Below are positions 6,001 through 31,680 of a DNA stretch of 64,000 bases, piece by piece. The notes below the pieces were generated by a model, which did not search any database, was not told where the DNA came from, and worked only from the letters and a program-made list of their open reading frames with translations. The first letter of the stretch is position 1. Every line of letters begins with the position of its first letter. Position numbers and translations under genes: made by a program. This DNA comes from Chaetoderma sp. LZ-2023a (lineage: Eukaryota; Mollusca; Caudofoveata; Chaetodermatida; Chaetodermatidae): contig CM067372.1 in NCBI GenBank assembly GCA_034401795.1, forward strand, positions 16,764,924 through 16,828,923, given 5' to 3'.

Positions 6001-6234
6001 TCTTCTTCTTTTCGTTCGCTGATCATACCTTTAGTCCTGTAAGTGACTATCGACATGATCATAAGCGTTAAGTGCGTGGATCCATGGTTTATTAGAGGGC
6101 GCCGTGCGGCCTGGAACCTCCGTCTTCAGCACTCGAGGTTTCTGTCAGGGTTACCTCACCCTTACCTCCTTTAGTCGCCTCTTACGACACGCAGAGGATA
6201 CGGAAGGTGTATTCTAAGCCCCACCTACAGGGCA
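6001..6234 (-). mobile_element. SINE-like retroposon inserted in the 46-bp array
   Basis: A 234-bp non-array block on the minus strand, beginning TGCCCTGTAGGTGGGGCTTA and ending in a short GAA-rich tail (CGAACGAAAAGAAGAAGA). Flanked by a 13-bp target duplication with one mismatch: ATAAAGACTGCAG (5988-6000) and ATAAACACTGCAG (6235-6247). A second copy at 18685-18914 has the same ends. It contains GGTTCCAGGCC, resembling a pol III B box (GGTTCRANNCC), but no clear A box at the usual spacing, so the SINE label is an inference from size, tail and duplication length. Confidence 0.75.
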
Positions 6235-15174: not shown

Positions 15175-17195
15175 TCTGCAACCAAGCAAACTTGTACTCA
15201 GCCAGTTTGTAACCGAGCAAACTTGTAGTCAGCCAGTTTGTAACCAAGCAACCTTGTATTCAGCCAGTTTGAAACCAAGCAAACTTGTACTTAGCCAATT
15301 TTGTAACTAAGCAACCATGTAATCAGCAAGTTTGTAACCATGAAACCGTGTACTCCGCCAGTTTGTAACCAGGCAAACTTGTACTCAGCCAGTTTGTAAC
15401 CAGGCAAGCTTGTACTCAGCCAGTTTGTACCCAAACAATCTTGTACTCAGCCAGTTTGCAACCAAGCAACAATGTACACAGCAAGTTTGTAACGTTGCAA
15501 ACTTGTACTCCGCCAGTTTGTAACCAAGCAACCGTGTACTCAGTCGGTTTGTGACCAGGTAAACTTGTACTCCGCCAGTTTGTAACCAAGCAACCGTGTA
15601 CTCAGCAAGTTTGTAACCAAGCAAACTTGTACTCAGCCAATTTTGTAACCAAGCAACCTTGTACTCCGCCAGTTTGTAACCAGGCAAACTTATACTCAGC
15701 CAGTTTGTAACCAGATAAACTTGTACTCAGCCGGTTTGTAACCAAGCAACCTTGTACTCAGCCGGTTTGTGACCAAGCAACATTGTACTCAGCAAGTTTG
15801 TAACCAAGCAAACTAGTACTCAGCCAATTTTGTAACCAAGCAGCCTTGTTCTCAGCAAGCTTTTAACCAAGCAACCTTGTACTCCGCCAGTTTGTAACTA
15901 GGCAAACTTGTAGTCAGTCAGTTTGTAATCAAGCAACCTTGTACTCAGCCAGTTTGTAACCAAGCAACCTTGTATTCAGCCAGTTTGAAACCGAGCAAAC
16001 TTGTAGTCAGCCAGTTTGTAACCAAGCAACCTTGTATTCAGCCAGTTTGCAACAAACTTGTACTTCGTCAGTTTGTAACCAGGCAAACTTGTACTTCGCA
16101 AGTTTATAACTAGGCAAACTTATACTCAGCCAGTTTGTAACCAGGTAAACTTGTACTCAGCCGGTTTGTAACCAAGCAACCTTGTACTCAGCCAGTTTGT
16201 GACCAAGCAACATTGTACTCAGCAAGTTTGTAACCAAGCAAACTAGTACTCAGCCAATTTGGTAACCATGCAGCCTTGTTCTCAGCAAGTTTTTAACCAA
16301 GCAACCGTGTACTCCGCCAGTTTGTAACCAGGCAAACTTGTAGTCAGTCAGTTTGTAATCAAGCAACCTTGTACTCAGCCAGTTTGTAACCAAGCAACCT
16401 TGTACACAGCCAGTTTGTAACCAGGCAAACTTGTACTCAGACAGTTTGTAACCAAGCAACCTTGTACACAGCCAGTTTGTAACCAGGCAAACTTGTACTC
16501 AGCCACTTTGTAACCAAGCAACCTTGTACTCAGCCAGTTTGTAACAAACTTGTACTTCGTCAGTTTGTAACCAGGCAAACTTGTACTTCGCAAGTTTGTA
16601 AGTAGGCAAACTTGTACTCAGCCAGTTTGTAACTAGGCAAACTTGTACTCAGCCAGGTTGTAACTAGGCAAAGTTGTACTCAGCCAGTTTGTAACCAGGC
16701 AAACTTGTACTCGGCCAGTTTGTAATCAAGCAACTTTGTACTCAGCCAGTTTGTAACTAGGCAAAGTTGTACTCAGCCAGTTTATAACCAGGCAAACTTG
16801 TACTCGGCCAGTTTGTAATCAAGCAACCTTGTACTCAGCCAGTTTGTAACCAGGCAAACTTGTACTCAGGCAGTTTGTAACCCGGCAAACTTGACATGGC
16901 CAGTTTGTAATCAAGCAACCTTGTTCTCAGCAAGTTTTAACGAGGCAAAGTTGTACTCAGCCAGTTTGTAACTAGGCAAACTTGTGCTCCACCAATTTGT
17001 AACCAGGCAAACTTGTACTCAGCCAGTTTGTAACCAAGCAACCGTGTATTCAGCCAGTTTGTAACTAGGCAAACTTGTACTCAGCTAGTTTGTAACCAAG
17101 CAAACTTGTACTCCGCCAGTTTGTAATCAAGCAACCTTGTACTCAGCCAGTTTGCAACCAAGCAACCTCGTAGTCAGCCAACTTGTAACCAAGCG
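15175..17195. repeat. 31-bp minisatellite (left part, split by the 10.8-kb element)
   Basis: About 65 units of roughly 31 bp: AGCCAGTTTGTAACCAAGCA + AACTTGTACTC, with CAAGCAACC and CAGGCAAAC alternatives. Several minus-strand frames (GYKLAEYKVAWLQT) are shadows. The array stops exactly at the left end of the mobile element and resumes after its right end. Confidence 0.95.
17190..17195. repeat. Target-site duplication CAAGCG, left copy
   Basis: CAAGCG directly precedes the terminal inverted repeat and recurs at 27963-27968 directly after the other end. Nearby array units usually read CAAGCA here, so the shared final G supports a true duplication of one target site. Confidence 0.85.
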
Positions 17196-18225
17196 AGTAG
17201 TAATGGGTGGGTCTGTACGTTATTGTTCTTCCCAGCAGGGAACAATGGGTTTTTCACGGGATCAAAGGAAAAGCAAGTGGAATGGAATGTTGAGAACAAT
17301 GGCGTCCAGCGGCACATGCATTCTAGAAAACAATGACGTACAGAACGCCACGTTTTCTCGATAACAATGACGCACAGCCGCACACGTATTTGAGATTCTG
17401 CCTCACTCTGGAATGTTCTATTATTTTGAATTAGTTAACCCTTAAAAGTTTAAAAGTTGTGTATTTTACATTTAAATGTAGTGGCGGCGCGCCCCCCTCC
17501 GTGGTTATCTACCGTTGTAAAAATAATAAGGGAGTAATGTAAAACTAATAGGGTTTAAGAGGTGGTCTGATAATGGAGGTCGTATGAGTATGAGGTTGAG
17601 GATGTATGAGGAATTACGGTATTGATGTATATTTTGAAAATAATTTGACTGTTTCGTCGATAACATTATTAGTAAACTGTAGAATATTTAGAGACTGCCT
17701 GTAAGCTGTTACTGTCTTAGCAACAGCTACCAGACAGATTAGTAACAAAATAGAGTTTAAGAGGTGGTCTGAATTGGAGGTCGTATGATGAGGAGGAGGG
17801 AGTATGAGGTTGAGGATGTTTGAGGAATTACGGTTCGCTATTGATGTATATTTTGAAAATAATGTGACTGTTTCGTTGCTAACGTTAATTTATTAGTAAA
17901 CTATTTTTGCTGAATATTTTGAAAACGTTTTGACTTTTAACCATCATTACGCACAAATTGTTTTTAAATACTTAATATTGCAATAATGTCAGTTGTTTTA
18001 GATGTTGCACGATGGGTAAAATGTAGTCATTATGTCTCTGAGTGCACCGTGCATTTATAGAATTGTATGTAGAGCGTACTTATGCTAAAAGGATTATTTA
18101 ATGCGTATGATTAAACCATTACTGCCACATTAGTCGTGAGATCGGTCCTTAATCGAGTTACAAACATGGCACATGTTAATAATGAAAGAATGTTAAAACA
18201 CCACCCGTCTCGTTCTAAGCACGGG
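17196..18225 (+). repeat. Left terminal inverted repeat
   Basis: Matches the reverse complement of 26600-27962 over its length. Shared blocks include TGTACGTTATTGTTCTTCCC, the GAACAATGGGTTTTTCACG block, TTAACCCTTAAAAGTT, AAGAGGTGGTCTGATAATGG and TTTTGACTTTTAACC. Homology fades after about 18225. An 88-bp internal block (AGTAAACTGTAGAATATTTA to AGTAACAAAATA) occurs once here but three times in the right copy. The two frames at 17137-17383 are not credible genes. Confidence 0.88.
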
Positions 18226-18507
18226 ATATTACAATGTCCTAGACAAAAGTTTGTTTTTATAAATCGATAATAACGCCTGCACCCGCTCACCGGCTATTGC
18301 TGTTTACCGACGATTAAAGATACGACAATTAAGAGCAACATTTTGAGCGTAGTAGCATAATCATAGATGGCCGTTTACTACAAATATAAATATATCCTTG
18401 TGGCTACAGAGCAGTGATACGTTATAACCATGTTTTCTACTATATAATTCAGTCCTTCCCTAAGCGACCACCTCGTGTTACATCATTACATGGATGCTAT
18501 TAACCCT

Positions 18508-19660
18508 TTTAACCCTAGAATTTCTTCAAGAAAATGTCAATTTTCTTCATATTCATATTTGTGGTACGAGAAGACTATTTTTGAAAATTTATCATCGGAA
18601 TGACTGGCACTGCAGGCTATCCATTTGTCTAGTCATTGCGTCGGCAAACACCCCCCACCAACCACCATCATCATCGCCAACACCTGCCCTGTAGGTGGGG
18701 CTTAGAATACACCTTCCATATCTTCTGCATATCGTAAGAGGCGACTAAAGGAGGTAGGGGTGAGGTAACCCTGACAGAAACCTCGAGTGCTGAAGACGGA
18801 GGTTCCAGGCCGCACGGCGCACTCTAATAAACCATGGATCCATGCACTTAACACTTATGATCATGTCGATAGTCACTTACAGGACTGGTGGTATGATCAG
18901 TGAACGAAAAGAAGATCACCAACACCCACCACCACCACCACCACCACCACCACCACTATGACCTACACCCAACACCATGCATTAACCCCACCACCACCAC
19001 CCATGCACCCGCCAACCCATAGCGAATTTCTTCATATTCATACTTGCATCCTTAGAGAAGGCTATTTTTGAAAATTTATCATCAGAATGACTGGCACTGT
19101 AGGCTATCCATTTGTCTAGTCATTGCGCCAGTAAACACCCCCACCAACCACCATCATCATCGCCAACACCCACCACCACCACCACCACCACCACCACCAC
19201 TACGACCTACACCCAACACCATGCATTAACCCCACCACCACCACCACCCACACACCCGCCAACCCATAGCAAATTTCTTCATATTCATACTTGCATCTTT
19301 AGAGAAGGCTATTTTTGAAAATTTATCACCGGAATGACTGGCACTGTAGGCTATCCATTTGTCTAGTCATTGCGCCAGTAAACACCCCCCCCCCCCCACC
19401 AACCACCATCAGCATCACCAACACCGACCACCAACAACACCACCACCTCCACCACTACAACCTACACCCAACACCATGCATTAACCCCACTACCACCACC
19501 CACGCACCCGCCAACCCATAGCGAATTTCTTCATATTCATACTTGCATCTTTAGAGAAGGATATTTTTGAAAATTTATCACTGGAATGACTGACTCTGAC
19601 AGCTATCCATTTGTCTAGACATTGTGGTCGGAAGGTGTGAGAGCGCTGTGTTTGAAAAAA
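18508..19660 (+). repeat. About 250-bp tandem repeat built on a MITE arm plus CAC expansion
   Basis: Four units (starting near 18508, 19027, 19274 and 19527) and a partial fifth at 19810-20040. Each has TTCTTCATATTCATACTTGC, then CTATTTTTGAAAATTTATC and GGAATGACTGGC (the arm of the TTAA hairpin MITE seen at 45246), then a (CAC)n-rich stretch. The first unit begins TTAACCCTAGAATTTCTTC, like the MITE end at 63042. The first unit also holds the SINE-like insertion. The small frames here are by-products of the repeats. Confidence 0.85.
18685..18914 (+). mobile_element. SINE-like retroposon, second copy
   Basis: 230 bp, same ends as 6001-6234: begins TGCCCTGTAGGTGGGGCTTA, ends GAACGAAAAGAAG. Flanked by ATCGCCAACACC (18673-18684) and ATCACCAACACC (18915-18926). 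The neighbouring tandem unit near 19158 reads ATCGCCAACACCCACC uninterrupted, which is effectively the empty pre-insertion site. Confidence 0.82.
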
Positions 19661-20054
19661 TGGCATATACGTTGGAGAGGGTATGTCAATGAGGATTTAA
19701 TAAAAGTCTCGCTCGTATGCACATGTGCTAATACGCGATACTGCTAGTTATACATTGTACCCGTGTGCGTGCATGCATGCCCCGGTGTGCACCCTTGTGT
19801 GCATGCATGCACCAGAAGACTATTTTTGAAAAGTTATCATCAGAATGACTGGCTCTGCTGGCTATCCATTTGTCTAGACATTGCGACAGCAAACACCACC
19901 CACGACCCACCTATATCCTCCACCCCATCATCATCACCAACACCCACCACCATCACGACGAGCATCAACACCACCGCCTTCAACACCACTGCCACTAGCA
20001 CCACCAACACCAGTACCGACATCCACCACCAACCACTAGGCACCACAACCACCA

Positions 20055-20500
20055 CCGTATGTTGCGGATTGTGACCTCTTGTTGTGGATTGCGTATTGCG
20101 GTTGCATGTTGAGGATTTGCCGGCATATGTTGTGGATTGCGGGCGCATGATGCGGATTTGCGGGCGTATGTTACGGAGTGCGGGCGCATGATGCGGATTT
20201 GTGGGCGTATGTTGCGGATTTGCGGGCGCATGATGCGGATTTGTGGATGCGTGTTGCGGATGGCACCAAGTGTATGTACATGCCTGAACATGCATACATG
20301 CCAAAATGCATGCATACAGGTGCGGCCTCATGCGGGCCGCATTTGCGGATTTGCAGGCATATGTTGCGGGCGCATGATGCGGATTGCAGGTGCATGTTGC
20401 GGATTTGCGGGCGTATGTTGCGGATTGCAGGCGCATGATGCGGATTGTGGGCACCATGTTGCGAATTTGTGGGCGCATATTGCGGATTTGTGGCCGCAGT
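20055..20500 (+). repeat. About 21-bp GC-rich repeat (TGCGGATTTGCGGGCGCATGA)
   Basis: Irregular tandem units such as TGCGGATTTGCGGGCGTATG and TGTTGCGGATTGCAGGCGC, interrupted at 20270-20335 by a CATGCATACATGCC segment. The same unit type recurs upstream of the second promoter module (22180-22230, 22710-22880). Frames of up to 234 codons on both strands arise from the roughly 21-bp period. Its position directly upstream of both TATA modules suggests a possible regulatory role. Confidence 0.85.
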
Positions 20501-20600
20501 ACATATAATCCTATAAATGGTACAAATTCAATCCCTTTTCTCATTCCAGTTTAAACATCGCAAAGTGGTTGGACGTGTAACTGCAGAGTAGTTAGGCAGT
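20481..20600 (+). promoter_or_regulatory. TATA-containing upstream module of the 185-codon ORF
   Basis: TATAAATG at 20512-20519 inside CCTATAAATGGTACAAATTC, about 140 nt before the ATG at 20660. Almost the same 120-bp block (through CCAGTTTAAACATCG, GTGGTTGGACGTGTAACTGC and AGAGTAGTTAGG) occurs at 22865-22987 before the 105-codon ORF. Conservation of the block upstream of two different ORFs supports a promoter function. The start of transcription is not known. Confidence 0.6.
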
Positions 20601-20659
20601 CAGATTTCTTTGAAGAACCTTGTAACTTGAATACTTGCTAGATTTATCCTATAATCAAT

Positions 20660-21217
20660 ATGCCGAGACATAAATATTTTGAATGTGCTTCAACTTTTAA
20701 TAGGTCAAATGACCTGAAGTGGCATAAGATCCGATTCCATAGCGATGAAGATAGCAAAAATCTAGACAGTGAAGATGAAGAAATGACAGAGATGAATAGT
20801 GACGATGATGAGCCAGTGGAGTTGGAGAGTGAAGCCGGTAATGACTCAGCAGAGACTGAGAGTGAAGATGAAAAAGATGCCATAGGCAATGAGGAACTAT
20901 TTACCATATTCCAAAATATTAAGCAGGTCTTAGACGCTGAACAATCAGGTTTAGAAGATGAGGATGGTGAAGTGGACACAGACCCAAATGGTGTAGGCAA
21001 TGTGCCTATTTCCGTATATGCTGATGCTTTAGTTACAAAGTGTATAGACGTAATGCTCCAGTCGAGAAGATTACAGAACTCTACGCTCAGTAAAATAATT
21101 TGTCAGGAAATTAAAGATTTTATCGATGAGGGGTACGCATATGATGAAGCAGTCTTCTCAGCTTTTCGAAAAAGAGTTTCTGATCAAGAAGTACATAAGG
21201 AACCATCTAGATGCTGA
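20660..21217 (+). CDS. Unrecognised 185-codon acidic protein with degenerate C2H2 finger
   Basis: I do not recognise the family. Residues 6-27 resemble a C2H2 zinc finger (C9-x12-H22-x4-H27, with the typical FNRSNDLKWH linker region), but the expected first cysteine at residue 6 is Tyr, one G-to-A change from Cys. Residues 28-110 are strongly acidic (Asp/Glu/Ser-rich), suggesting a nuclear, chromatin- or DNA-associated protein. Residues 113-175 look globular and helical (SVYADALVTKC...). Near 21165-21180 the reading frame appears disrupted: an overlapping frame continues with matching character to a stop at 21258-21260, so the last 10 or so residues of the annotated frame are probably artefactual. 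It lies inside the 10.8-kb element behind a TATA module. Whether it is functional is unclear. Confidence 0.6.
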   Translation: MPRHKYFECASTFNRSNDLKWHKIRFHSDEDSKNLDSEDEEMTEMNSDDDEPVELESEAGNDSAETESEDEKDAIGNEELFTIFQNIKQVLDAEQSGLEDEDGEVDTDPNGVGNVPISVYADALVTKCIDVMLQSRRLQNSTLSKIICQEIKDFIDEGYAYDEAVFSAFRKRVSDQEVHKEPSRC

Positions 21218-21260
21218 GGATAATGATGATGATTCTGTCGGTGATAGATCTGATCCATAA

Positions 21261-21720
21261 GGAATCAGTCATCGATAAAATGGATCTCCAGAACATTGAC
21301 TATTTGTTTATGCTACAGCAACTATACGTTTTATCATATGTAATATTTACTTCAATGTAAAAATATGGATACAAATAAAACATTGGTTCTTTTTGTGCGT
21401 GTTTGATGATTGTAGCTTCCCAGCCAGGTGCCCCCACATCCCTCGATATACAAATTGGAGTGCTGTTGTTCAATGCGACAATTTGACATAGGAAGCCACA
21501 ATTCCGCTTAGTTTCAAAATACTTTTTCACTACAACCACGAGGTACTGCATTGACCACCTAATACGTTAAACGATACAAGGGTGCTCATCATTATTCGTC
21601 AACGATGACGACGGTGAACATTGTTCCCAACATTTTAAAATTTAAATAATAATTAAATGACTGACGCTTTAAAGACCACTCCTTAAATACGAGATGCATG
21701 ATTATTATCTATATAATAGT
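21261..21720. other. Non-coding interval in the element
   Basis: No gene supported; an 83-codon minus-strand frame at 21300-21551 has no recognisable features. No histone-type stem-loop was found downstream of the 185-codon ORF. Confidence 0.4.
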
Positions 21721-22778
21721 ATGCATACAACATCGCTTGGCTTAGCTATATATATTACTCGCATAGAGATGTACATTGCTCTCTTTTAAAAAAAATTAAA
21801 TGACTGGTAGGAAGCCGCTTAGTTTCATGTTTGAGGGTTTTAGATGAAGGTTAATGCGTTTGCATACAAATCGAAGGATTAAAAGCGAATCATAGATGCT
21901 TTATGCACAATAACGAGGTGGTCAGGGAAAACATATTTCCCTGGATACTTTTTTAACGCGCACAGATTTTTATGCGTTTAAACCATTTAACAAACTAATC
22001 CATCGCGTCTAGCCTGTGAACATATCCAAGATTTTCGCCTGCATGTATGTGTCATTATATGGAGGTCAGTATGCAACAGTTTTTGATAGGACGCTAGTCA
22101 TCTCATGCGATATTCCTTATATTTTTTTGTAGTAGAGCGATGTAGTATAAATGTAAATGTTAATGTACTTTTGGCTAAAATGTGTTGCGGATTTGCGGGC
22201 GCGTGTTGCGGATGGCAACAAGTATATGCACATGCCTGAACACGCATACATGCATACAACATCGCTTGGCTTAGCTATATATATTACTCACATAGAGATG
22301 TACATTGCTCTCTTTTAAAAAAAATTAAATGACTGGTAGGAAGCCGCTTAGTTTCATGTTTGAGGGTTTTAGATGAAGGTTAATGCGTTTGCATACAAAT
22401 CGAAGGATTAAAAGCGAATCATAGATGCTTTATGCACAATAACGAGGTGGTCAGGGAAAACATATTTCCCTGAATACTTTTTTAACGCGCACAGATTTTT
22501 ATGCGTTTAAACCATTTAACAAACTAATCCATTGCGTCTAGCCCGTGAACATATCCATGATTTTCGCCTGCATGTATGTGTCATTATATGGAGGTCAGTA
22601 TGCGACAGTTTTTGATAGGACGCTAGTCATCTCATGCGATATTCCTTATATTTTTTTGTAGTTGAGCGATGTAGTATAAATGTAAATGTTAATGTACTTT
22701 TGGCTAAAATGTGTTGCGGATTGCTGGCGCATGTTGCGGATTGCGGGTGCATGATGCGGATTTGCGGGCGCATGTTGT
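21721..22778 (+). repeat. 529-bp tandem duplication (two copies)
   Basis: 21721-22249 and 22250-22778 are near-identical (landmarks GGAGGTCAGTATGC at 22061 and 22590, both offset 529). Each copy ends with a leader-like segment: TTCCTTATATTTTTTTGTAG, GAGCGATGTAGTATAAATG, then TTTTGGCTAAAATG. A third copy of only that leader sits directly before the 105-codon ORF (22990-23080), where the same ATG is the ORF's start region. Confidence 0.92.
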
Positions 22779-22864
22779 GGATGGCAACAAGTATATGTAC
22801 ATGCCTGAACACGCATACACGCCAAAATGTATGCATACATGTGCGGACGCATACGGTCTGCATG

Positions 22865-22987
22865 TTGTGGATTTGCGGGCGCAGTACATATATTCCTATA
22901 AATGGTACAAATTCAATCCATTTTCTCATTCCAGTTTAAACATCGTAAAGTGGTTGGATGTGTAACTGCAGAGTAGTTAGGTAGCCT
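22865..22987 (+). promoter_or_regulatory. TATA-containing upstream module of the 105-codon ORF
   Basis: Near-duplicate of 20481-20600. TATAAATG at 22897-22904, followed by the same AAATTCAATCC..CTCATTCCAG..TTTAAACATCG series. The ORF begins about 170 nt further on. Between them lies the leader block that also ends each 529-bp repeat. Confidence 0.6.
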
Positions 22988-23069
22988 TAGGCAGTCTCAT
23001 GGGATATTCCTTATATATTATTTTTTTGTAGTAGAGCGATGTGGAATAAATGTAAATGTTAATGTACAT

Positions 23070-23387
23070 TTGGCTAAAATGGCCAGCAGTACAAACTTTG
23101 ACGGATCAGACACTGGGTATGTGCGATGTCGTTGGTGTTCCATCGACATCCGCGACACCATATGCCGACGGTCGAAACACGAGAGGGTCTGTAGGCGTAT
23201 GATCAAGAAAACAGAACCTAAAGAGATGGTGTACACCTGCAAGGAGTGCTATTGTCTATTACCAATCAAACAGTATCCGCATGGGTGTCCTGTAATCGGT
23301 GATACTCCGACTGATATACAAAAAGCAAACATGATGCAGTTTGTTACCAAACTGACAACCGCGCCTGTGCAGATCTGCGAAGACTGA
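23070..23387 (+). CDS. Unrecognised 105-codon cysteine-rich, zinc-finger-like protein
   Basis: Family not recognised. Two likely zinc sites: C20-x2-C23-x13-H37-x3-C41 (C2HC type, VRCRWC...KHERVC) and C57-x2-C60 with H71/C73 further on (YTCKEC...PHGC). The centre is basic (RR, KK), suggesting nucleic-acid binding, possibly nuclear. Start: the first ATG (23070) lies in CATTTGGCTAAAATGGCC; a second Met at codon 4 is also possible. Upstream is a TATA module duplicated from the 185-codon ORF. Downstream, 17 nt after the stop, is a histone-type 3' stem-loop, followed by AATAAA-like sequences at about 23458-23478 as possible back-up poly(A) signals. The frame is intact and the neighbours are non-repetitive, so this is the best gene candidate in the element. 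Confidence 0.7.
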   Translation: MAKMASSTNFDGSDTGYVRCRWCSIDIRDTICRRSKHERVCRRMIKKTEPKEMVYTCKECYCLLPIKQYPHGCPVIGDTPTDIQKANMMQFVTKLTTAPVQICED

Positions 23388-23404
23388 GACCGATCTCAAA
23401 ACAC

Positions 23405-23420
23405 GGCCCTTTTCAGGGCC
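23405..23420 (+). terminator. Histone-mRNA-type 3' stem-loop after the 105-codon ORF
   Basis: GGCCCT-TTTC-AGGGCC: a 6-bp stem with the order G-C, G-C, three Y-R pairs and a top T-A pair, with a 4-nt TTTC loop. This is exactly the replication-dependent histone mRNA signal that SLBP binds. It has an A-rich 5' flank (CAAAACAC) and, 12 nt downstream, a purine-rich GAAAGAGA (23433-23440) at the place of the histone downstream element paired by U7 snRNA. The 3' flank CACAAA deviates from the usual ACCCA. Confidence 0.8.
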
Positions 23421-23853
23421 CACAAATCATTTGAAAGAGATCTCTCTATCTGTTCAAAAAATAAAATAATGTAATAAAGTTTTTACACACAACAACCCGC
23501 TTCACACATGCATTCGCAAGCACACATTCTGATCCATCAAAAGTGGTCGATGGATGCTACTGTTCTAAATGGTCATCTGTATGCTATTGTTCGTGGATGA
23601 TTAATGCATTGCCATTGACTAGGTACACATTTTGTTCATATTTTTGAAAAATTTATAATTAAATGACTGCCATTTTAAAGACATAAATATGATAGATAAA
23701 ACTATCTATATAATAGCATAGGAAAACTTACTGTGTACGTGTCTGACTTTGAAAAATTAAATGACTGGAGAACACATTTTGCTCATATTTTTGAAATTTT
23801 AATAATTAAATGACTTCCACTTTAAAGAATCACCTTAAATACGTAAGATAAAA

Positions 23854-23932
<79 letters not shown>

Positions 23933-24219
23933 ACGTAGATCACTATAACCCATTTAACGCAACGCTCTGATTTTTTTATTTTAAATTGAATGACTGGGAG
24001 TTTGTTCATATTTAAAAAAAATTTAATAATTAAATGCTTGATGCTTTAAAGACATAAATATGGTAGATAAAACTATCTATATAATATTATACATCGTCAA
24101 CGATGACCATTTCCATAGCAATTTTGAAAATTTAATAATTAAATGACTGCCATTTTTAAATGACTTAAACCAAGGAGGAGGTTAATGGTGACTAAACCGC
24201 CAGCGGCTTACAATCAATT
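23421..24219. other. AT-rich non-coding interval
   Basis: No gene. Contains repeated AAATTTAATAATTAAATGACTG-like pieces (near 23655, 23790, 24030 and 24120) and the (TA)n tract at 23858-23936. These short pieces probably come from one small repeat family within the element. Confidence 0.5.
23858..23936. repeat. (TA)n microsatellite
   Basis: About 79 nt of uninterrupted TA, bounded by AAAATTATT on the left and CACACAACG on the right. Confidence 0.98.
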
Positions 24220-24990
24220 ATTTTCAAAATATTCGTACAGAGATATCGCGCAAGACGTTGCCTCGGCGAATACACTAGCATATACGTCAGCCATCCTCCT
24301 CATCCCTCGCGACACCTCTACGAGCGACAACCTGCATTTTCTTAAAGGACCACCAGCCGAATAAAGGCACGCTCATGCATGGAGAACAATGCCAAGCAGA
24401 GGGTGTCCGAGATAGCATTCCTCCCTCCTCCTTCGACCTCCATTATCAGACCACCTCTCTCTTACCTAACATCGCCTAATAAGAAATTAAAATTTACACA
24501 GTCAAATCATTTTCAAAATATTCAGCAACCAATCAATTTTATTCAGCAACCAATCAAAATATTCAGCAACTGATTATCATAATATTCAGCAACCAATTAT
24601 CAAAATATTCAGCTACCACTCAAATTATCAAAATATTCAGCAACAAATTATCGAAATATTCGTACATCGTGCATACCTTGTAAACAAGTATGCTAGCATC
24701 GCCCTCATAATCATCCAGCAATATCAACTGAGGAGGAATGCTATATCATTCTGCCTCAACTGACACAGACAGTCAAATTATTTACAAAATATTTGTACAT
24801 AGAGAATTGCCTTGTAAACAAGTACGCTAGACCCTCAAAACCAACTTCTACTGAGCAAGAATGCTAGCCTCATCTACCTCCCACTCCTCACCATACGACC
24901 TCCCTTATCAGACCACCTCTTAAACTCCTTCCTCATATTATCATAACACCACTTAAACTCTATTATTTTTTACCTTACATACCACAATGA
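24220..24990. repeat. Internal copies of terminal-repeat motifs
   Basis: Blocks typical of the right inverted repeat recur here in the same orientation: TTCGACCTCCATTATCAGAC near 24430, TACGACCTCCCTTATCAGAC near 24890, TTAAACTCTATTATTTTTTA at 24953, plus several TTTCAAAATATTCAGCAACC units (24480-24680). It may be a remnant of an older or nested element end. The 64-codon frame at 24379-24573 is made of these repeats and is not called as a gene. Confidence 0.65.
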
Positions 24991-24999
24991 AACGTCTGA

Positions 25000-25520
25000 C
25001 AAACAGGATTCTGAAGAAAAAATGATCATATTTAATGTATAATTATTTATGTACTATGTTTTCTTTTTAATTATCGTGAATAAATATCGCTAATATTTAT
25101 CATAAAAATGCACGTGTCAATAAAAAATACATTTATTTTGTAAAAATATGTTATTATTTCTTCGTGTTCCCATCTCAACCCTCACCGAACCCCAATTATC
25201 GCTATTTTGATAATAAAAAAAAAAAATGTAATGGTACACTAGGCACGCGGGGTGTACCACAATGATCCAAAGATCCGTAATTAATCGTATTCACATCGCG
25301 ACAATGACAAAATGCGGACATATTTGAATACAGAGGAAACCATATGACGTGCTCTGTAATTGAACCCTGTGTATCAATTCCAGTTTTCTATAACTGGAAT
25401 GTCATTCAAACATGGTGCGATAGTAATGTTTTGTAAACCGATGATGTTAAGCGGTGGAGAAAAAACACGTGACTGAAATAAGGGTGTGTTCAGATTGGAA
25501 AGATAGTTTTAGTGACAGCT
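25000..25520. other. AT-rich non-coding interval
   Basis: No gene or named repeat seen between the internal terminal-repeat motifs and the promoter of the 88-codon ORF. Includes short A-runs and AATAAATAT-like sequence near 25078. Confidence 0.4.
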
Positions 25521-25531
25521 CATATTTTAGC

Positions 25532-25539
25532 TATAAAAG
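25532..25539 (+). promoter_or_regulatory. TATA box of the 88-codon ORF
   Basis: TATAAAAG within TTTTAGCTATAAAAGCTAAA, 61 nt before the ATG at 25600. With an initiator about 30 nt downstream the 5' leader would be only about 35 nt. This is a good match to a strong TATA element. Confidence 0.65.
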
Positions 25540-25599
25540 CTAAATGCGCGCGACTAGTAAGGCATACAGCTTTTTTTTTAATTTAACAAAACACGTAAA

Positions 25600-25866
25600 A
25601 TGGAATCTCAATTATGCGATCGATGGAGAACGATAGGTTCTACGCCTATTAATTGTGGCTGCATCCAATGGAACCAATATAAAGAGGTTCCAGTACGGCA
25701 ACCATTTGCAATGTCATTGCGTGAAATCCGTAACCGCTGGAGAGAATATCTAGTGGATCTGGACGAACGCAATTACAACAAATGGTTGCATATGAAGTAC
25801 CAACTTCGTAATGATTGTTGTATGTGTATGTCGTGCAAACAAGACAGAAGTTATTGTTTGCATTAA
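25600..25866 (+). CDS. Unrecognised 88-codon protein with cysteine-rich tail
   Basis: Family not recognised. The middle (residues 39-69, SLREIRNRWREY...NKWLHMKYQLR) is rich in Arg, Trp and Tyr and probably helical. The tail has C73, C74, C76, C79, C86 and H88, a possible metal-binding knob; C19 and C21 lie in the N-terminal third. Net basic, no signal peptide or membrane segment. The start follows a TATA box at 25532 by 61 nt, and a histone-like stem-loop begins 44 nt after the stop. Such a compact TATA-ORF-stem-loop unit mirrors the 105-codon gene and suggests co-regulation. The small size makes expression uncertain. Confidence 0.6.
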   Translation: MESQLCDRWRTIGSTPINCGCIQWNQYKEVPVRQPFAMSLREIRNRWREYLVDLDERNYNKWLHMKYQLRNDCCMCMSCKQDRSYCLH

Positions 25867-25910
25867 TTGAGATAAAAATATTTACGTTAGCAAAATAAAA
25901 AATAAAAATA

Positions 25911-25930
25911 GGCCTCTTTTTTAAGGGGCC
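25911..25930 (+). terminator. Histone-like 3' stem-loop after the 88-codon ORF
   Basis: GGCCTCTT-TTTT-AAGGGGCC folds with an 8-bp stem (one G-T pair) and TTTT loop, flanked by A-rich sequence upstream and ACCAAAAACC downstream. The GG...CC base, T-rich loop, A-rich 5' flank and ACC 3' flank recall the histone signal. The stem is two pairs longer than canonical, so this match is weaker than the one at 23405. Confidence 0.55.
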
Positions 25931-26599
25931 ACCAAAAACCAAAATTATGTTACATACACCCACACACAAACGGGTACATAAAAAAGACGCACACATGCAC
26001 GCACGACGTACACGCATAGGGGACAGGGAACACGGGTGACAAGTGGCATGCGCGTAGAACCATGCACGCATCGTCACACGCGTATCGTAACACGCGTGAG
26101 GTTATGCGCAGTACGTGAGTGTGTTGGTGCATCAGGTGCATGTGTGTGGGTACGTATGTGAAAAAAAGTAGGACACCCTTGTGGATGATAGATCAGTAAC
26201 AGTTTCCAACGATACAGATGCATTCAACCACATATTCCACCATGGGTGAAGCCTTTCGTCGTGGTACATACCAACAACATTATTAGTTCGCGAGGAAACA
26301 GACATTGACAAAATCTAACATCGCATGACCTTAAAGCGAATGAAGCGTACATGTTTAATGTTAATATGAGTAATGCGCAAACACACCATAAATATGCATA
26401 AAGCACTCGAGCACCAAAACGTGATATTCTAATAATTACCCAAGGGAATTAGTACATATGTCCACTCGGCTAAGAACTAGGAAACGATACGATATTGTAT
26501 CCAGACCACAAAGCTGTACACATTCGCAACTACAAAGTAAAATCTCCTAGTGAGTAGGCGATAATTCAATAGTAATTTTGAATATTTCTAAAAAATCAC
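25931..26599. other. Non-coding interval before the right inverted repeat
   Basis: No gene supported. 25960-26150 is a low-complexity ACGCACACATGC / GTGTGTG-rich patch; the minus-strand frames across it (up to 142 codons) show no family features. Confidence 0.4.
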
Positions 26600-27962
26600 G
26601 TAGTACGAGACTTGAGGTACTAACACATTCTTTCATTATTAACACATGGTATGTTTGTATCTCGATTCAAGCTTGATCTCACGGCTATTCAAAACATATG
26701 GTTAAATCATACGCAACAAATAATCTCTTTAGCATAAGTACGCTCCACATACAATTCTATAAACGGAACCCTCAGAGATATAATGACCACATTTTAACCA
26801 TCGTATCTAAAACGATTGACGTTATTGCAAAGTATTTTAAAAACAATTTGTGCATAATGACGGTTAAAAGTCAATCAAAATATTCAACAAAAAAATAGTT
26901 TTACTAATAACGTTGGCGACGTCAAATTAATTTCAAAAGATTCAACAGTTTTCCTGTATGGTATCGATAAAAATGAGCTATATATTCATCGGTATTAGGG
27001 TTAACTTCTTTTTAACCCAGGATACAATCCATCACCACCAAGTCTTGGTTACCATTCCAACCGAACATACCATTAATACAAGATTATTTTTAATATTTTG
27101 TTACTAATCTGTCTGGTAGCTGTTGCTAAGACAGTAACAGCTTACAGGCAGTCTCTAAATATTCTACAGTTTACTAAGGACGTTAGCGACGAAACAGTCA
27201 AATTGTTTTCAAAATATACAGCAATACCGTAATTCCTCATACATCCTCAACCTCCTCCTCCTACTACTACCTCCATTATCAGACCACCTCTTAAAATCTA
27301 TTTTGTTACTAATCTATCTGGTAGCTGTTGCTAAGACAGTAACAGCTTACAGGCAGTCTCTAAATATTCTACAGTTTACTATCAGACCACCTCTTAAAAT
27401 CTATTTTGTTACTAATCTGTCTGGTAGCTGTTGCTAAGACAGTAACAGCTTACAGGCAGTCTCTAAATATTCTACAGTTTACTAATAATGTTAGCGACGA
27501 AACAGTCAAATTATTTTCAAAATATACATCAATACCGTAATTCCTCATATATCCTCAACCTCATACTCCTACGACCTCCATTATCAGACCACCTCTTAAA
27601 CTCTATTATTTTTACATTACTCTCTTATTATTTTTACAATGGTAGATAACCACGGAGGGGGGGGGGGGGCGCCACTACATTTAAACGTAAAATACACAAC
27701 TTTTAAGGGTTAACTAATTCAAAATAATAGAACATTCCAGAGTGAGGGAGAATCTCAAATACATGTGCGGCTGTGCGTCATTGTTATCGAGAAAACGTGG
27801 CGTTCTGTACGTCATTGTTCTCTAGAATGCGTGTGCCGCTGGACGCCATTGTTCTCAACATTCCATTCCACTTGCTTTTCCTTTGATCTCGTGAAAAACC
27901 CATTGTTCTCGAAGACCCCCTGCTGGGAAGAACAATAACGTACAGCCCCACCCATTACTACT
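26600..27962 (-). repeat. Right terminal inverted repeat (longer than the left)
   Basis: Inverted copy of 17196-18225, longer because the block TTTTGTTACTAATCTGTCTG...TCTACAGTTTACT is present three times (27093-27175, 27300-27380, 27402-27483) against once on the left. Each of these blocks holds a small hairpin (AGCTGTTGCT AAGAC AGTAACAGCT). A 13-G run at 27657-27669 replaces CCCCCC of the left copy. Confidence 0.88.
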
Positions 27963-27968
27963 CAAGCG
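27963..27968. repeat. Target-site duplication CAAGCG, right copy
   Basis: Identical to 17190-17195; it immediately follows CCCATTACTACT. The array then resumes with AAGGTGTACTCCACAAGGCT. Confidence 0.85.
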
Positions 27969-30023: not shown

Positions 30024-31680
30024 CACCTGTGCAAAAGTTAAGCACCAGCAAAAACAATAGAACGTAGAAACATGATGGTACAACTAGGCTGCCATACTTT
30101 TTGTCCCCGCGCTAGCTGACATAATTCCAAGTACGAAATGCACATGCATGCATGACTTCACGCCGCTTGATGTCCGTGCGTGGCGGGAAACAGCACACGT
30201 GTTCAGTTATGTAAAAGTCCAGTTTGAGGTGTAGAACATTACATACAGATTTAGGCGACAAGATTAGGAATTTTGTGTTCATGACCGTGGTTTATTTGTA
30301 CAGAGAGAATTAGCTCTTGATTGTGAACCGCTATGGCAAGACGAAGGTTAAGTGATCGTGTGAAATGGCAACTCATAGGCATGCATACCACTGGTATGTC
30401 ATGCAGAGAGATTGGCAGACAGCTGAACATTAACCATACTGTAATCAGTCGTTTGATTGCAAAACATGGGCAAACTAACGAGGTGAAGGACAGGCCTAGA
30501 TCTGGAAGACCGAAGAAGACTACTGCCCGTGATGATCGAGCCCTAGTACGCCTTGTTAGGAGATCTCCATTCACCAACAGCAGAGTGCTCAGCCAGCAAT
30601 GGGAAACGCGCAATAGAGTGTCAATGTCTACCGTCAAAAGGAGACTGTATGCTGCTGGCATGAAAGCTAGGAGACCTGCCAGACGTCCTCTCCTCACTGC
30701 ACACCACAAAGAGGAGCGTCTGAGGTGGTGCAACGAAAGAAGACACTGGAACATGAGATCCTGGAGACGGGTACACTGGTCCGATGAAAGTCGGTTCCTG
30801 CTTCATGCCACAGATGGTCGAACTCGTGTATGGAGGTCCAGACGCACGGCGTACGACCAACGTAACATCATGGAAGAAGTTCCATTTGGTGGAGGTTCCG
30901 TTATGATATGGGGGTGCATCTCATTTGATTGTAAGCTGGATCTGTTGACTGTACCTGGAACACTAAATGGACAAAGATATCAAGATTCCATACTGGATAG
31001 AGTTGTGGTCCCTCATTTTGTAAATCATGCACCTGGAACCCACCCTATATTCATGGATGACAACGCCCGACCACATCGTGCCAGAGCTGTGCATGAATAC
31101 CTCCTCCAGAATGCCATCGAAACCCTACCATGGCCAGCAAGGAGCCCTGACATGAACCCTATTGAGCATATCTGGGACATTCTGGGAAACATGATGAGAA
31201 GGAGGGATCCTCCTGTGCAGAACCTACAGGAATTAACAGACGCACTCCATCTTGAATGGCAACGAATACCACAATGGCGTATCAGTCGGTTGGTGACCAG
31301 CATGAGACGTCGTGTCCAGGCCGTCATCCAGGCACAAGGTGGATATACCCGGTATTAATAATGACAGTCTCAAACTCGTGCACAGATGTTAAACTTCGTT
31401 TTCAGACACCATTAATGACAATCTAGCCACGTGTGTCAACTGTAGGGCAATAGTTGTCAGTTGTGTCAACGTAACCATATTCAGGCCTCGTTTTCAAGTT
31501 CAAACAAAAACATACAGTGTTTCCCCACCATCATAATCAGCATTCCTCTAGTTGCATTATTACCTCTTGCACTAAGATGGATGGGTACATAAATGTTTAT
31601 GCTATTGCTTTCTTCATAGCACATGAATATACCCTCGCATGTGCGTAAAAATAGGGTGGTGCTTAACTTTTGCACAGGTG
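30024..31680 (+). mobile_element. Tc1-like transposon (1.66 kb)
   Basis: Terminal inverted repeats of at least 24 bp: CACCTGTGCAAAAGTTAAGC from 30024 and GCTTAACTTTTGCACAGGTG ending at 31680 are exact complements. TA dinucleotides flank both ends, as expected for Tc1/mariner insertion at TA; the surrounding TATATA makes the exact target copy ambiguous. It encloses one complete transposase frame. Confidence 0.95.
30333..31358 (+). CDS. Tc1-like DD34E transposase, full length
   Basis: 341 residues, typical for Tc1-family transposases, which cut out the element and reinsert it at TA sites in the nucleus. Residues 5-50 form the first helix-turn-helix (SCREIGRQLNINHTVISRLI), residues 54-62 the GRPK AT-hook-like linker, and residues 65-120 the second HTH. 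The catalytic triad is D151 (HWSDESRF), D243 (MDDNARPH) and E278 (SPDMNPIEHIWD), with 34 residues between the last two. No internal stop or frameshift. ATG at 30333 follows about 309 nt of left flank. The intact frame plus exact inverted repeats suggest a young copy, possibly still active. Confidence 0.96.
   Translation: MARRRLSDRVKWQLIGMHTTGMSCREIGRQLNINHTVISRLIAKHGQTNEVKDRPRSGRPKKTTARDDRALVRLVRRSPFTNSRVLSQQWETRNRVSMSTVKRRLYAAGMKARRPARRPLLTAHHKEERLRWCNERRHWNMRSWRRVHWSDESRFLLHATDGRTRVWRSRRTAYDQRNIMEEVPFGGGSVMIWGCISFDCKLDLLTVPGTLNGQRYQDSILDRVVVPHFVNHAPGTHPIFMDDNARPHRARAVHEYLLQNAIETLPWPARSPDMNPIEHIWDILGNMMRRRDPPVQNLQELTDALHLEWQRIPQWRISRLVTSMRRRVQAVIQAQGGYTRY

Follow-up and report, generated by a model that had tools for sequence, protein, structure and literature searches.

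A non-autonomous Polinton/Maverick derivative carries, behind a small gene that does not encode a histone, the stem-loop and the histone downstream element (HDE) that its host uses in replication-dependent histone genes. Judging from its sequence, the mRNA of this gene, ORF2, is likely to be processed at its 3′ end by the host SLBP and U7 snRNP and thereby tied to S phase, with polyadenylation as a fallback. The element lies in a 64-kb window, the whole stretch of DNA analysed here. All coordinates are window positions, and the host genome searched comprises 2.44 Gb. The features discussed below are:

17190–17195: left copy of the target site duplication, CAAGCG
17196–27962, + strand: whole element, 10,767 bp, a non-autonomous Polinton/Maverick derivative with termini AGTAGTAATGGG...CCCATTACTACT, long terminal inverted repeats (TIRs) and a 6-bp target duplication
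17196–18193, + strand: left TIR, from self-comparison
20475–20596, + strand: promoter-like block upstream of ORF1 (putative promoter), TATAAA at 20512, 93% identical to 22860–22981
20660–21217, + strand: ORF1, 185 aa, acidic, with an ordinary AATAAA behind it at 21374
22860–22981, + strand: matching promoter-like block upstream of ORF2 (putative promoter), TATAAA at 22897
23079–23387, + strand: ORF2, 102 aa, Cys/His-rich (CxxC...HxxxC, CxxC...HxC), not a histone
23405–23420, + strand: histone-type stem-loop GGCCCTTTTCAGGGCC, GGCCCT-TTTC-AGGGCC, identical to the host H3, H4 and H2B stem-loop
23432–23452, + strand: HDE, with 19 of 21 bases as in the host H4 HDE
23460–23478, + strand: two AATAAA poly(A) signals, at 23460 and 23473, a possible fallback 3′ end
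25600–25866, + strand: ORF3, 88 aa, with no Pfam match, common to integrase-bearing Polintons
25911–25930, + strand: weak second hairpin behind ORF3, GGCC...GGCC then ACC, Rfam Histone3 17.6 bits (E 0.7)
26625–27962, − strand: right TIR, with an internal tandem duplication, from self-comparison
27963–27968: right copy of the target site duplication, CAAGCG

The histone-type signal behind ORF2

The preliminary description placed a stem-loop 17 nt past the stop of a 105-codon ORF and a downstream element 12 nt past the stem-loop. Both distances are correct: the ORF2 stop (TGA) occupies 23385–23387, 17 nt before the stem-loop, and GAAAGAGA begins at 23433, 12 nt past it. The ORF itself has 102 codons. 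With a 6-bp stem and a 4-nt loop, the stem-loop fits the histone criterion GGYYYUNHNHARRRCC, and a purine-rich HDE lies within the ∼12–15 nt past the stem that are usual for histone ends. The segment 23388–23452 is predicted to form a stable fold (z −3.4). The two AATAAA signals start 8 and 21 nt behind the HDE.

A chance origin of the signal is excluded by three comparisons. A degenerate histone stem-loop pattern has its sole match in the window, on both strands, at 23405–23420, where shuffles give an expectation of 0.08 per window (two matches occurred in 1 of 100 shuffles). The host H4 HDE, searched with up to three mismatches, has one match in the window, at 23432–23452 with two mismatches, against an expectation of 0.00. 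In the host genome, 532 copies of the exact 16-mer (259 + 273) stand against 0 + 1 for the reversed control and an arithmetic expectation of about 1. Rfam Histone3 (RF00032) scores the window stem-loop at 25.3 bits (E 9e-4), under the gathering score of 34, so that a scan of the window at the gathering threshold reported no match; two further element copies score 25.1 and 24.2 bits. The host controls reach 39.2 (H3), 35.2 (H4) and 32.6 bits (H2B). The element is thus a weaker match than true histone ends, yet one genuine host end, that of H2B, is also under the cut-off.

Histone arrays of the host were located via histone H4 (14 H4 matches, 12 loci fetched), and stem-loops in these loci were filtered for GG..CC ends, six standard pairs and TT at bases 6–7. 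All 35 stem-loops that passed have the element's sequence and fall into three contexts, with 12, 12 and 11 occurrences. In L075, the one locus where the genes were identified, the contexts lie behind H3, H4 and H2B; an H2A end was not seen among the host histone loci examined. The three ends in L075 consist of the 16-mer, 13 nt and then GAAAGAGATC, and the host H4 HDE is CGAAAGAGATCTCTTTATCTG. In these host genes, 13 nt separate the stem from GAAAG; the element has 12 nt there. GAAAG is preceded by a CA at a distance of 8 nt in the element as in H4 and H2B, and of 9 nt in H3. The A that follows the stem in host H3, H4 and H2B is absent from the element. The spacer and flanks of the element are also unlike those of the host genes, so the agreement is restricted to the parts read by SLBP and U7 snRNP. 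Capture followed by selection, or independent gain, would both give such a restricted match; it would not be expected of a decaying passenger. With the identical 16-mer in host H3, H4 and H2B and an HDE nearly identical to that of H4, the earlier reading of the signal as histone-type is borne out.

The host encodes SLBP: its RNA-binding domain (PF15247) gave four exon matches at loci on C15 and C11, all over the cut-off and one with an internal TAG. Rfam and pattern searches yielded no confident host U7 snRNA. The Rfam scan is uninformative, its controls being silent too. One pattern search for U7 found 266 places against 95 in the control, a single repeat making up most of the places listed, and the last found 44 against 34. 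One candidate, L087, contains CTCTTTC together with an Sm-like site; it lacks a clear 3′ hairpin, as does another candidate, L091, and Rfam does not match it to U7. Because L087 is not established as U7, its good pairing with the HDEs is not used as evidence (−18.2 kcal/mol for H4, −16.5 for the commonest element form and −11.7 for the window copy, the last value being reached by 9 of 500 shuffles).

The Polinton derivative and its relatives

The preliminary description assigned the signal to a mobile element of unnamed type. Defined ends, TIRs and a 6-bp target duplication confirm the assignment and place the element among non-autonomous Polintons/Mavericks. Its termini, AGTAGT...ACTACT, have the form (AGT)2//(ACT)2, one of two that mark Polintons/Mavericks, the other being (AG)n//(CT)n, and its TIRs span about 1 kb: positions 17195–17772 align with 27963–27382 at 93.6%, and further pieces, down to 80% identity, extend to 18193. 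A genome search with the TIR gave 40 scored matches of 1836 candidates, including at least five pairs beyond the window's own, 13.7 to 17.5 kb apart. Three of five TIR pairs inspected have a 6-bp target duplication: those of the window, C1:190.19 Mb (AACAGA) and C12:158.4 Mb (GATGTG). Of the other two, the pair at C14:67.5 Mb has inverted flanks, and the C10 pair gave no clear right end. At C14:67530663–67547526 (L044, L041), the two Polinton ends have identical inverted flanks (14 bases compared) rather than a target duplication, as if the element plus its flank had been duplicated in inverse.

Other repeats lie within and near the element. A tandem duplication of ∼493 bp (21721–22741, 98% identical) is located inside it, upstream of ORF2. 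A 231-bp repeat, probably a small insertion element, occurs at 18685–18915 inside the element and, in inverse orientation and 95% identical, at 6004–6234 outside it. An open frame for a 341-aa Tc1-type transposase (HTH_Tnp_Tc3_2, DDE_3) is found at 30333–31358.

Pfam gave no match over cut-off in ORF1, ORF2, ORF3 or six other element frames of at least 100 aa, and Polinton PolB, integrase, ATPase, protease and capsid genes were not found in the window element by this means. We therefore regard it as a non-autonomous derivative and not as a full Polinton. A relative on C10 (17.5 kb; interior pieces L069 and L070) encodes DNA_pol_B_2 and an rve integrase with a chromodomain, both over Pfam cut-offs, and has weak, below-cut-off matches to the poxvirus A32 ATPase (E 5e-4) and the adenovirus endoprotease (E 0.005); no capsid match was found in it by Pfam. 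The relative shares with the window element the right-hand 1.3 kb that includes ORF3 (window 24988–26257, 91%). ORF1, ORF2 and the stem-loop are absent from the 14.5 kb of it examined. In this integrase-bearing copy, two adjoining short frames with a stop between them (L069:5412–5942) show by eye CxxC/HxC patterns like those of ORF2, and may be a distant ORF2 relative that has no stem-loop.

The two element types were compared through lists of matches: 150 of 978 for ORF2, 150 of 3328 for ORF1, 132 of 8881 for the integrase and 100 of 532 for the stem-loop. Since these lists cover part of larger numbers, positive counts are lower bounds and absence holds for the listed places. Among the 150 + 150 listed matches there are at least 33 ORF1–ORF2 pairs in which both share a strand and ORF1 is 1.9–4.3 kb upstream; no listed pair is in opposite orientation. 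At least 16 of the 100 listed stem-loop places have ORF2 directly upstream, and at least 11 have ORF1 2.3–4.6 kb upstream. Within 20 kb of the 132 integrase matches listed there is no listed ORF2 (150), ORF1 (150) or stem-loop place (100). By eye, ORF3 stands behind both types: for instance, the integrase at C8:97620521 is accompanied by ORF3 at C8:97625495, and ORF2 at C2:36046455 by ORF3 at C2:36048908.

The hairpin behind ORF3 likewise occurs in both element types. We rejected it as a second histone end because its Rfam score is weak, no HDE accompanies it and one pair is broken in the L070 copy, which has no Histone3 match; it is possibly a degenerate histone-like end.

ORF2 is not a histone, in keeping with the preliminary description: it has no match in Pfam, the PDB or the protein database. 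Its Cys/His pairs look like zinc-binding ones. Homologues of ORF1, ORF2 and ORF3 were not found in the protein database, and for ORF1 and ORF2 none was found outside the host genome; a search of viral contigs for ORF2, the Polinton integrase and stem-loop-plus-HDE patterns returned no result. Of ORF1 and ORF2, only ORF2 has the histone-type signal, since behind ORF1 there is an ordinary AATAAA. In most of the 150 ORF1 copies listed, the match is limited to residues 1–172 and the open frame is longer, at 210 aa; the window's ORF1 thus represents a minority form of the C-terminus. The 3328 first-look candidates for ORF1 suggest a family larger than that of ORF2.

Copies of ORF2 and its signal in the host genome

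ORF2 has 978 first-look candidates in the host genome, and all 150 of those scored match. Histone genes account for at least 35 of the 532 exact 16-mers. All eight loci fetched from the 16-mer list are copies of the element's 3′ end, one of them (L008) without the end of ORF2. In seven ORF2 copies for which the stem-loop, rather than the ORF, was the selection criterion, non-synonymous and synonymous differences number 38 and 26 against an expected ratio of 2.74, or 0.53 of neutral, which shows some purifying selection on ORF2. The same set contains five stop-changing differences and, in one copy, a 10-base deletion.

Conservation of the signal was assessed in copies located through ORF2, irrespective of the stem-loop. 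Fifteen of 30 such copies, the window's included, have the exact 16-mer; the conservation set consists of 29 of them, again with the window's, one of a near-identical pair having been dropped. All six stem pairs are kept in 21 of the 29 copies, five of which end in T and so have a G–U pair, and 8 of the 29 break a pair. The HDE agrees with that of host H4 at 20 of 21 bases in 13 copies, at 19 in 9 (including the window's) and at 18 in 5, and is deleted in 2. Diversity over the 29 copies is 0.068 in the stem-loop, 0.047 in the preceding 17 nt, 0.046 at third codon positions of ORF2 and 0.12 behind 23453. In the 3′ region, 63 of 157 16-nt windows, the stem-loop's own among them, have diversity as low or lower.

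The preliminary description looked to compensatory changes as a sign that the stem is conserved. The pairing itself is kept in most copies, as given above; two-sided changes do not occur among the 29, and there is no excess of conservation. Copy-to-copy conservation as a proof of function was therefore rejected: the stem-loop is kept no better than its neighbours, and comparison of the copies does not prove selection on the stem. Mean pairwise distance in the sample is 5.3% (largest 18%). These copies are young and decaying after insertion, which leaves the conservation test with little power either way.

A further sequence, GGCTCTTTTCAGAGCC, has two sites in the whole genome, L072 (C3:47644683) and L071 (C1:60161802). 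Rfam Histone3 scores L072 at 37.8 bits and L071 at 28.3 bits, the latter with a second stem-loop just before it. No histone ORF was seen by eye at either site among frames of at least 50 aa on that strand.

Proposed mechanism and comparison with known systems

In the mechanism we propose, the non-autonomous element would move by means of related Polintons that carry integrase and polymerase. Its ORF2 mRNA would present the host signal, whose sequence identity is described above: the stem-loop to SLBP and, 12 nt on, the HDE to U7 snRNP. Histone pre-mRNA is cleaved after a CA ∼5 nt past the stem (PMC6303110). SLBP and U7 snRNP would similarly cleave ORF2 pre-mRNA after the CA a few bases past its stem, giving an mRNA without poly(A) whose production, stability and translation would fall in S phase and which would be degraded once replication stops. 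The ORF2 protein would then be made during host replication, when an element copied at a DNA stage could profit from it. Outside S phase or in other cells, the AATAAA signals at 23460 and 23473 may serve to make a polyadenylated form. We lean, less firmly than for the processing itself, towards the wider view that a Polinton satellite took over the host histone mRNA pathway, and that a non-polyadenylated, S-phase-limited mRNA for the Cys/His protein times element activity to host replication.

The same arrangement would arise if the histone signal were a captured passenger, with the AATAAA sites as the main place of cleavage and polyadenylation of ORF2 mRNA and the stem-loop having no role. 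The position of both AATAAA signals just behind the HDE is consistent with this, as are the ordinary AATAAA that ends ORF1 in the same element and the conservation data, in which 8 of 29 copies have a broken pair and the stem shows no excess conservation. We nevertheless consider it unlikely, because agreement with the host's working signals persists in the stem and HDE but not in the spacer and flanks, a pattern unexpected for a decaying passenger. Human H2AC18, in which an AAUAAA overlaps the HDE, is processed both ways and still yields a histone-type end too (PMC9756948).

Two other explanations are less likely still. ORF2 could be a family of dispersed host genes with histone-type ends, joined to the Polinton by insertion only, and some purifying selection on ORF2 would agree with that; the fixed ORF1–ORF2 order, with at least 33 same-strand pairs and none opposite among the 150 + 150 listed matches, and the location of the window's ORF2 inside TIRs flanked by a target duplication make it very improbable. 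The palindrome might instead act as DNA, for instance by forming a hairpin in replication or recombination of the element, and resemble the histone loop by coincidence; its perfect 6-bp inverted repeat lies in a DNA element, and Polintons replicate as DNA. That reading leaves an HDE at histone spacing unexplained, and the integrase-bearing relative has no such motif in the 14.5 kb examined; we find it the hardest of all to credit.

If ORF2 mRNA is indeed processed by SLBP and U7 snRNP, a mobile element of hundreds of copies using the histone mRNA signal would break the rule on that signal's use. A selfish element would then have an RNA-level means of reading the host cell cycle, and ORF2 mRNA would escape poly(A)-based RNA-seq. 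Among the titles and abstract openings listed in a search of the open-access journal literature, none described a mobile element with a histone-type 3′ end. Such use of SLBP/U7 would, to our knowledge, be without precedent for a mobile element or for a non-histone gene family of this size.

The 3′ end of ORF2 resembles those of replication-dependent histone genes in its stem-loop, identical to the host's, its nearly identical HDE and its nearly equal spacing. It differs in having a non-histone ORF, a different base next to the stem and an AATAAA close by; unlike the signals of a histone array, it sits in a dispersed mobile element. In human H2AC18, too, an AAUAAA is close to the HDE, and the histone and canonical machineries may therefore compete (PMC9756948); but this is a histone gene in which AAUAAA overlaps the HDE, whereas the element's AATAAA starts 8 nt behind it. 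Vertebrate Mavericks have 6-bp duplications and (AGT)2//(ACT)2 termini (PMC8097293). The window element shares with Polintons/Mavericks these two features, the long TIRs and a PolB- and integrase-bearing relative in the host genome; unlike them, it has three small ORFs, one with a histone-type 3′ end, and no core genes were found in it. The Polinton element itself is of a known kind, and the borrowed RNA pathway is the new part.
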